A model generated the notes under the pieces. The model searched no databases. It was not told where the DNA came from and saw nothing but the letters and a program-made list of their open reading frames with translations. Of a DNA stretch of 64,000 nucleotides, positions 13,601 to 63,579 are shown one piece after another. Source of the stretch: Nereocystis luetkeana. Lineage: Eukaryota; Sar; Phaeophyceae; Laminariales; Laminariaceae. The position numbers and the translations under genes were made by a program. The stretch spans positions 1,679,001 through 1,743,000 of the forward strand of contig JARUPZ010000010.1 of the NCBI GenBank assembly GCA_031213475.1, given 5' to 3'. The stretch's first letter is position 1. Each line of letters starts with the position of its first letter.

Positions 13601-16600
13601 TATCCTACCTGGGGTATGTACGTACGTACGACATCCGCGACGCGAAGCGCATATGTGGCATTCGAGCTGGCGTCGGAGCTGTTTGTTCCTGAAGCATGGC
13701 GGCGGGACTCTTGGCATTATCAAGTCGCCGGTTTGCAATTACGACCTAAACTCAATCGTGGACCTCTGTCACTTCGCATAATTTGATGTACTTTTTTCCT
13801 TCCAGAGCGAGCGTAGCGGGCGGCGTAGGCCGCCCGCGGAGCGAAGCGCCTTGTATATATATATATATATAATATATGCTGTAGGTGCAGATTACACGTC
13901 GATCAAGGACGTCAACAATAGCATCCAGATATCTGAAAAGGGGGCCGAAGATGTGGCTATTCGAAACGAAACAAAAGGGGAATAGATGTACCCCACACCT
14001 TTAAACGAGACTAAAACGCCTCCAAGAGTACAAGGTACAGTATAGTGCATGCTAGTTTCTGGCTCTCTTGCCGATTCCGCTTCTCCCGTTTCGCCAATCC
14101 GTCTGATGTGCCGTTTCGTCCTCCGCGCGCGCCGTCTCGTCTTTTTGCTCCGTTTGGTGCGTTGCATCGTTTCGTCCTTTGCGCCGTTCCGCCCTTCGCG
14201 CCGCTTCGCGCCGCTTCGTCCGCTGTATCGTTTCGTCCTATGTGCCGTTTCGTGCACTGTATCCTTGTGCCCTTTGCGCCGTTTCGTCCGTTGTGCCGTT
14301 TCGTTTTTTTTTCCCTGTGTGTGGAGGCATGCTTGCGGCCGGGTCCGTCCGGGCGAGTGGCCGGCGTTGCTACAGCGGGAGATTTCTTTACCCTCTTCCT
14401 CAGGGACGCAAGCGAGTTTGCGGGGCTGTACCATACCACACTCGGAGACAGGTGGGGGGATGGGTGAGGGGCGCGTGGGGGGGGGGGTGGGTTGGGGGGA
14501 GGGGGAGGGGGCGGGGGGGGGGTACTCGTTTTGATGCTTGTCTGAGTCGTTTTGGCAATCACCACGCATCGCTTTCGAGACGGAGCACTGTTCCTAGTCC
14601 TAATAGAGATGAGGGATGAGTTGGGGGGGGTGAGGGGGGGGGGAGGGGGGGGAGGGGTGAATTATTGGAGGGGGCAGGAGGGAGGGGGGTAACGTGTGTG
14701 CTCCCAAGTTGTTGCTATGATACGCACCTGATTTTGGCTCTTGTTTAGGTGTGTGTATAAGGGTCGCTCGGAAAAGCGGCGATGTTTCGGCCAACTGTGT
14801 ATTCCTGTATTGGTCGAATTGCTGCTCCTGGTGCCGTTTCGGGGTTAGAGTACGTTGTATCGCTGTTACGGAATGGACCGACCTCGTTTTGATCTAGGGT
14901 TGAACGCTAAACATGCATTTATGCGGGTTGACACTGTATTTCCGAAACAGAAAAGAGCGGACGTCCGCAAGGTGGTTCCCTTTTCGGGAAAGCCTCATTA
15001 TTATGTACGAGTTAACCTACAGTACATTGCGTCGTACAAAAACCGGGGTGAGTCGGCTCGATGTCACGGCTATAGTACTATGGGGGGCCATAGTAAATAG
15101 GACCTACGGCACAGACAATAACCTTATATATTTCCCTATTTTTGCTAACAATATTTGGTCCTATTTACTATGGTCCCCCGTAATAGTAGTAGATAACGCA
15201 TGCCAAGGTCGAGAGGTGCAACATTTTTAGCCCGGAAGATTCCTGTCTGTGGGAGCGCTCTATACTTCTACGGGGGACCATAGTAAATAGGACCAAATTT
15301 TGTCAGTAAAAGTAGGTAAATATATAGTTTTTTGTGAGTACCGTAGGTCCTATTCACTATGCCCCCCCGTCATAATACCACGGTAAGTCACCCAACAATC
15401 GTTTTTTGTAAAAAAAAAAAAATGAAAGATGCCACCCGATGGAAAAATCACCATGTCTTAAGTGTCAAAAATAGTCCTATCGCCGAAAAAAGGAAGGGAT
15501 GACATTTTCCGACGGTTTGGGGTCAACGAGCCCCCTCAGTCCAAAAGTGTTTTAGCCAAAAATTGGTGTCCCACCCCTACCTATCGTACGTCACGTCTGC
15601 ATACTAATACTATTACAGGGGACCATAGTAAATAGGACCAAATATTGTCAGTAAAAGCAGCTAAATATATACCCTGGTAGGTTTTTGTGTGCACCGTAGG
15701 TCCTATGTAATATGGTCCCCCGTAATATGTAATGCTAGTACCAATGTTATTACTAGGTATTGCAAGTTGTTACGGGGGAGCGTATGTCGTGTTTAGAGGA
15801 GTGGCCCCTCAATGGTGCCGGGTGTCCGCCACAACAGTGCCCGTGGGTGGAATCGCTTGGCACAGGTGGGACTCACCGGGTGCGGCGGAGTGCGGAGTAT
15901 ATAGTGCCGGTTGGCCGCTGTATATAGGGCCGGTGCTGCCGGCTGGCGCATATCATACCGGCAATACCGGCACTATGGAGGGGCTATCAGTGCTGTGATC
16001 AGAACCAAATGTGCCGTGCAAGCACGGACGGATGCCTTACCTGCTTATTGAGTCCATTGTGGGCTCTCGGGGGACCATAGTAAATAGGACCTACAGTACA
16101 CCCAAAAAGTTATATATTCCCTATGTCTACCAACAACATTTAGTCCTATTTACTATGGTCCCCCGTAATACTGTAGTCGTCGTACGAAAACAGTAAAATT
16201 CGGGCCACTAATGCGCCAGTCGAATACCAGGGCGTAGGACTCCGCAGATTACGGCACGCAGCTAGCTTTAACACCTCGCCAACTCTTCTAGCTGTAGTCG
16301 GCGACTTCTATGACGGGGGACCATAGTAAATAGGACGTACGGTACACATAAAAACGTATATATGTATCGCAAAAAACAAACTATTAACCGCAATATTTGG
16401 TCCTATTTACTATGGCCCCCCGTAATGGTCAGCCACAACTCGCAGCCCTATGTATCGTTTGGAGCATGTGTATCGTATGATACCAGGTACCTGGTACGTA
16501 TTTAAATGGGCGGCTCGTTCGTGGTCCTTTTTTTGGTGATGCCGTTGTTGTTGTTGCGCTGTGTTGCTGTCGTGGTTGTTGCTGTTTTTCTGTCGTTTGC

Positions 16601-63188: not shown

Positions 63189-63579
63189 TATTACGGGGGA
63201 CCATAGTGAATAGGACCAAATATTGTTGTTACTAGTAAAAACGTGTAATTACTAAATATACACCTGGTACCTGGTAGTTTTTTGTGTGTACCGTAGGTCC
63301 TACCATGTATTAGGGTCATTATTATCGGAGAGTTATTTTTTCCCATAATTTCGACATTTTTTTCGCGCAAGTTTTCAATCTTCCACATTTTCCTGTTTTT
63401 TTTTTCTCCAAAAAATACGTGAAATTTAACGAACATGATTTTTTTGGTTCTGGAGAATTTTACGAATAGTGACAGAACGCCTCTGTATATTGATACCTAC
63501 CTCCAATTATTTCCAAAATCAGGAAATTATGGAAGAAGCGCTCTCCGATAGGAATGAACCTTACCATGGCCCCCCGTAG
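63189..63579. mobile_element. MITE family 1, copy 21, split by another element
   Basis: The left part TATTACGGGGGACCATAGTG runs to GTACCGTAGGTCCTA at about 63,302. The right TIR end TTACCATGGCCCCCCGTAG resumes at 63,561. The interior gained CACCTGGTACCTGGTA (63,261-63,276) and GTTACT before AGTAAAAA. Confidence 0.8.
63312..63561. mobile_element. 250-bp nested element with inverted ends
   Basis: Left end AGGGTCATTATTATCGGAGA; the right end, reverse-complemented, reads AGGTTCATTCCTATCGGAGA. About 17 of 21 bases agree. TACCATG occurs on both sides and may be part of a target duplication. The AT-rich interior has no coding frame. Confidence 0.7.

Follow-up and report, generated by a model that had tools for sequence, protein, structure and literature searches.

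How a seven-base sequence came to be added repeatedly at TA dinucleotides is the question raised by this stretch of the Nereocystis luetkeana genome. Extended low-complexity tracts, MITEs, and sparse coding sequence mark the DNA as eukaryotic, and would suit a brown alga. The 64,000 nt that were analysed, hereafter the window, carry the unit TACCWGGTA singly and in tandem, and copies of one MITE family differ by its presence. A first-pass annotation had read the pattern as insertion of a 5-bp core with TA duplication, followed by tandem growth, and named no source for the insertions.

Abundance and Form of the Seven-Base Unit

The window contains 31 matches to TACCWGGTA, compared with 0.54 expected from 100 dinucleotide shuffles, the largest of which gave 4. 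The over-representation of TACCWGG words claimed in the first-pass annotation is thereby borne out, although the chance expectation is about 0.5 rather than the two to three assumed there. The 31 units fall into 20 sites, 15 of them single, two double, two triple, and one sixfold; the site at 63,261 enters this count as a single unit, the outer TA of its other unit being mutated. Arrays are present at five places where they had been reported, and comprise two units at 11019..11034 (centre bases T,T) and 16481..16496 (A,T), three at 30785..30807 (A,A,T) and 38003..38025 (A,T,A), and six at 19019..19062 (TTATTA, with a 21-bp period occurring twice). Single units, likewise unstranded pattern matches, lie at 11544..11552, 11997..12005, 12676..12684, 17695..17703, 21929..21937, 23263..23271, 28420..28428, 35349..35357, 37545..37553, 43918..43926, 50257..50265, 53193..53201, 55222..55230, and 62914..62922.

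Among the window units the centre base is A in 15 and T in 16, and never C or G, and each of the remaining one-mismatch forms of TACCWGGTA occurs only 0–3 times with both strands summed. The restriction of the centre to A or T, together with the scarcity of one-mismatch forms, indicates that the units are nearly intact and vary mainly in orientation. Within 255 kb of DNA from the same genome, a sample partly fetched with the unit pattern itself, the centre is A in 59, T in 52, G in 2, and C in 2 units.

A count across the genome had been proposed in the first-pass annotation as a check against a random background. The assembly (465,085,209 bases in 1,987 contigs) holds TACCWGGTA at 182,395 places, far above the 1,744 places found for the reversed pattern used as a control. 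Two adjacent units occur at 15,917 places (control, 2), and subtraction of adjacent pairs from units leaves approximately 166,000 sites. At 7 bp per unit, the units make up about 0.27% of the genome. The form with C or G at the centre is found at 10,882 places (control, 1,899), part of which may be mutated units, and five 10-kb stretches picked at round coordinates contain 17 units with A or T at the centre and one with C or G.

Filled and Empty Sites in a MITE Family

Many copies of a MITE family with inverted ends TTACGGGGGACC at TA are present in the window, at 1605–1716, 11545–11660, 12450–12563, 15072–15187, 46340–46455, and other positions. Twenty copies were aligned, as the first-pass annotation had suggested, and scored as filled or empty. 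Four of the 20 are filled at one TA (AAAAACC-TA-TATATT), where pattern matching and the alignment place one unit at 35349..35357, as previously described, three units at 38003..38025, and two units at 63261..63276, and where the alignment places a six-base form, TA-CCCTGG-TA, at 15670..15679 (− strand). This last insert had been described as a 7-bp gain and is in fact a gain of 8 bp. The multi-unit reading of 63,261 stands insofar as two units are present, but the outer TA of one of them is mutated. Two further copies carry a unit elsewhere in their interior, and one more carries a unit at the bordering TA (11544..11552).

The best pair of empty and filled sites within the window is provided by the unit at 17,695, in agreement with the gain proposed there: within a single MITE, the two copies of a tandem duplication read aagtaTAgttaatagg and aagtaTACCTGGTAgttaatagg, one empty and the other filled. 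The gain at 21,929 had also been described as clean; the unit is present within a MITE copy, but its host is a TA-rich variant to which the empty site aligns uncleanly. Empty MITE sites have one TA and filled sites have two, which supports the earlier reading of a 5-bp core inserted at TA with duplication of the TA.

Genome-wide, a 16-base inner word with the hot-spot TA empty occurs at 3,655 places, and the same context is filled by one exact unit at 491. Both CCAGG and CCTGG occur in this one fixed context, as expected of a footprint; among 100 of the 491 matches that were listed, 63 have A and 37 have T at the centre (hand count). Occupancy of the hot-spot TA is about 17–18 times that of an average TA, the density of TAs being an estimate based on 114 kb.

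Polarity of the Longer Forms

Besides the palindromic unit, the window contains a six-base form that has a direction. TA-CCAGGG-TA (11002..11011, + strand) or its complement TA-CCCTGG-TA (33100..33109 and 63643..63652, both − strand, in addition to the hot-spot insert at 15,670) occurs four times, compared with 0.125 expected, and the mirror CCTGGG/CCCAGG occurs 0 times. Across the genome, TACCAGGGTA is found at 5,725 + 5,697 = 11,422 places (reversed control, 195 + 214 = 409), a count somewhat inflated in that 7 of the first 100 places listed come from one satellite array. In this array (G000:C1:1305185-1308353), the seven TACCAGGGTA places are spaced 528 bases apart. The mirror TACCTGGGTA is found at 780 + 798 = 1,578 places (control, 185 + 177 = 362) and hence also exceeds its control; the difference between polar and mirror forms is sevenfold.

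Because TACCAGGTA and TACCTGGTA are complementary to each other and the unit occurs in both orientations, simple slippage of GG or CC would predict both longer forms equally. The sevenfold polarity suggests instead that the additional base derives from a sequence reading CCAGGG, and the preference for CCAGGG over CCTGGG is suggestive of leftover transposon ends. A yet longer scar at the hot spot, TA-CCAGGGG-TA, was seen at three of the 12 MITE loci that were opened and has the same polarity as the six-base form.

Orientation of Neighbouring Units

Slippage alone predicts that all neighbouring units are alike, and independent events predict that half of them are. Of the 11 pairs of neighbours in the window, 7 have opposite orientation and 4 have the same, whereas among the forward-strand pairs listed genome-wide 40 of 59 agree and 19 differ (hand count). 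Identical neighbours throughout, the mark of slippage as the sole process, are seen in neither sample. The mixed orientation implies that many arrays needed a fresh event rather than slippage, and the excess of like pairs over one half among those listed makes some growth by slippage likely. The tandem growth proposed in the first-pass annotation is thus retained in part, for some slippage, but falls short of the mixed window pairs; judged from the sequences, slippage and independent events both seem to act in arrays. Adjacent units are approximately 14 times more frequent than under random re-targeting of TAs, and one local preference for certain TAs can account for this excess as well as for that at the hot spot. 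In grasses, Stowaway elements are described as inserting at one TA more than once, and MITEs as targeting sites inside other MITEs (PMC1925063).

Scanning bacterial and archaeal contigs with a three-unit pattern returned 40 loci. Like the arrays described here, these carry TACCWGG in tandem, but mostly in one orientation and with degenerate neighbours. In 35 of the 40, every array of at least three units has a single orientation, the mixed loci being L007, L024, L030, L034, and L035; at many loci, degenerate units lie next to the array, for example TACTTGG or TACCAAG. By these features the bacterial arrays look like a separate, slippage-like phenomenon. They come from unrelated bacterial MAGs (L001–L040), where TACCWGG arrays lie beside degenerate heptamers (for example L018 4986-5029, L030 298-549, and L040 near 3813), and some are adjoined by other heptamers (GACTAGA, ACTGCGG). 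In viral contigs, neither three units in a row nor the MITE was matched, and the nine matches to two units, spread over scattered records, were taken as chance.

A Proposed Model of Transposon Excision

Based on these data, the 7-bp units are probably excision footprints of a TA-targeting cut-and-paste transposon of the Tc1/mariner or pogo type. We infer the mechanism, since the parent element itself was not found. The ends of such a parent would read TA-CCAGG(G)...(C)CCTGG-TA. Its insertion would duplicate the TA, in keeping with the one TA observed at empty sites and the two at filled sites. Excision would cut the non-transferred strand 5 nt inside each end, leaving a CCAGG overhang on both flanks. 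These overhangs would pair C-G, C-G, A.A, G-C, G-C, and repair of the single mismatch would yield CCAGG or CCTGG. The CAG overhang of Sleeping Beauty pairs with one central mismatch as well, giving CAG or CTG. If one extra base were retained, the scar would become CCAGGG or its complement CCCTGG, which is the polarity observed. Hot TAs would be hit repeatedly and build up arrays of mixed orientation, with part of the growth, to judge from the counts, being plain slippage. A fixed core with A or T at its centre matches this scheme, in which self-complementary CCAGG overhangs have one central mismatch. Simple slippage leaves the polarity and the A/T centre unexplained, and excision footprints are consistent with both.

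The model has precedents in known elements. Tc1/mariner transposases are described as cutting the non-transferred strand a few nucleotides inside the element, with end joining leaving a footprint, which for Sleeping Beauty is CAG (PMC8151067). Sleeping Beauty and other Tc1/mariner elements share with the feature described here the TA target, its duplication, and a short scar made of terminal bases (same source); the scar here differs in being 5 nt (at times 6–7) rather than 3, in its sequence CCAGG, and in that its parent was not found. Tc1/mariner footprints are stated elsewhere (PMC7913693) to span 2–4 bp, a range that the core of 5 bp, at times 6–7, exceeds. Stowaway and Osmar5 elements in grasses resemble it in leaving terminal-base scars between TA duplications and in reuse of the TA, but the scars reported there (PMC1925063) are end fragments of 1–4 bp at single loci, and the core described here is a uniform 5 bp genome-wide. 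By its sequence, the feature would work like a Tc1/mariner footprint of different length. Literature searches for such scars and repeats found no five-base scar with arrays across a genome in print, and a literature word search found neither TACCTGGTA nor TACCAGGTA as a whole word in any paper. The words "footprint" and "excision" are absent from the main text of a survey of Ectocarpus transposons (PMC12477816).

The usual census of cut-and-paste transposons covers the copies that are still in place. A sufficiently long, uniform, and polar scar would allow departed elements to be counted as well, here at approximately 166,000 sites, and would make the use of hot spots, the local preference, the length of the overhang, and the outcome of end joining measurable from sequence alone. 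If the model is true, small 7-bp insertions would be one of the main sources of variation in the genome.

Alternative Origins of the Units

Besides the missing parent and the length of the core, a number of observations were counted against the excision model. The sites are very many, the A:T split of 63:37 at the hot spot is uneven, the mirror TACCTGGGTA lies above its control, 40 of the 59 listed pairs are alike, and the MITE tree described below allows a single origin. One alternative is that the units form a seven-base micro-satellite, in which a seed TACCWGG spread through replication slippage and copying within repeats. Window arrays that reach six units, one of them with a 21-bp period, the like orientation prevailing in the listed pairs, and the mostly uniform, slippage-like arrays in bacteria all speak for such a process. 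It is nevertheless an unlikely origin, given that 15 of the 20 window sites are single units, that most neighbouring pairs in the window are opposite, that the window centre is A or T only, and that the longer forms are polar; moreover, slippage does not originate units at clean TAs. Another reading takes the unit to be ancestral to one MITE subfamily and carried along or lost as that subfamily spread, and in its favour four of the 20 aligned copies have one and the same TA filled, each time by an insert starting with the A form. A tree of 19 copies, however, requires four changes, and none of 200 bootstrap trees unites the filled four, although the tree is weak, has no well supported branch, and is compatible with a single origin of the four. 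For this tree, the units were removed from rows 37948 and 63184, and the TA-rich stretch together with the unit from row 21873; the inserts were retained in rows 15607 and 35295, and row 17592 was left out. The retained inserts would favour grouping, and the filled four are nonetheless ungrouped. Age argues in the same direction. Mean divergence from the consensus is 13% across 20 MITE copies, compared with an S-centre excess of about 5% of the W-centre count (arithmetic on the genome-wide counts), so that the units look younger than their hosts, which is evidence against an ancestral unit lost elsewhere. With both orientations present in one context and most window units lying outside the TTACGGGGGACC MITE, an ancestral unit is very unlikely.

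Selection is invoked by a different explanation, according to which TACCWGGTA is a palindromic binding site, for instance for a regulator or for chromatin. The motif is an odd palindrome and very abundant, as such a site might be, but selection would have no need of a duplicated TA, and the clean 7-bp gains in MITE copies, the tandem arrays, and the polar longer forms make this account highly improbable. We assign a similarly slight probability to scars of another process that opens TAs, such as programmed elimination or a nuclease producing CCWGG overhangs, with no mobile parent in the sequenced nucleus. Very many scars, and a parent not seen in the parts searched, are what such a process would produce; the arrays, on the other hand, require repeated events at one site, and we know of no process of this kind in a comparable genome. 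In its boldest form, a programmed process would have removed more than 160,000 TA-bounded elements, each leaving a fixed five-base scar, and the assembly would be a genome of scars. This version appears more improbable still and, if true, would concern an organism that is not known for DNA elimination.

Search for a Parent Element and Transposase

The excision model predicts a parent with CCAGG ends. A paired-end search of the window yielded no accepted parent. With a minimum of 14 matches in 20 bases it returned 22 rows, 20 of which are arrays matching arrays; the other two represent one pair of candidate ends at 24,150/28,428, which was taken as chance on account of its poor match (15/20) and a right end that is an ordinary unit. 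None of the best 70 of 1,159 pairs of TA-flanked inverted repeats in the window starts with CCAGG or CCTGG; these 70 belong to the MITE family, to simple repeats, or to one of two further repeat types. In the 255 kb of DNA from the same genome, 82 single ends gave no common element end. Two candidates, TACCTGGATGATA (L055, L062, L063) and TACCTGGGGTATG (L053, L067, and window position 13,606), were rejected because the preceding sequence is shared too, which places them inside repeats.

The MITE hot spot was also used as a trap for the parent. Matches with two non-T letters after CCWGG numbered 44, of which 12 loci were opened, and matches with CCAGGGT followed by a non-A letter numbered 5, all of which were opened. 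At the 17 opened of these 49 matches no element was found, and the remaining MITE sequence, diverged in some cases, resumes within about 100 bases. The sample that was not chosen for a transposon, consisting of the window and the five 10-kb stretches (114 kb), contains zero parents. It is important to note that zero in 114 kb is compatible, at 95%, with as many as approximately 12,000 genomic copies (3/114 kb arithmetic), and the absence of the parent is therefore not strong evidence.

Searches of the genome for transposase domains gave 0 matches to DDE_3 (PF13358) and 0 to Transposase_1 (PF01359), the latter with a control that was silent too. DDE_1, which is pogo-like, gave 28 matches. The pogo-like elements resemble the predicted parent in having TA-flanked inverted ends, but these lack CCAGG wherever they were seen: the ends at TA read CAGTACCGGCC in 4 of the 28 loci (L075, L078, L088, L090) and GCACCGGGG in one, and most of the 28 have no recognised ends. 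Inspection of the inverted repeats of nine pogo-like loci found nothing. Among TA-N3-TA words, TACAGTA ranks top (87 vs 27.9) in a set that includes the pogo loci, and in the window plus random DNA it is 2.2-fold, like other words. The ends of the same four pogo loci themselves spell TACAGTA, and its use as an internal control for pogo scars was dropped.

Other Features of the Window

Rfam searches returned nothing at gathering scores, and Pfam searches of 30 reading frames (E up to 0.01) returned only weak matches to reverse-transcriptase RNase H and ankyrin, below the curated cut-offs. The RNase H match lies at 3918–4361 (+ strand), and the start of the window may, on this basis, hold a decayed retroelement; beside it, ARAGORN calls a tRNA-Glu at 4480–4568 (− strand). 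The ankyrin matches, at 54861–55094 and 57025–57387, are perhaps exons of one gene. At 44684–45469 there is a very long three-base repeat array that has an open frame on each strand. Two elements, at 33680–36277 (about 2.6 kb) and 56873–57671 (about 0.8 kb), resemble each other in their inverted ends (CGGCCATGCATGA...).
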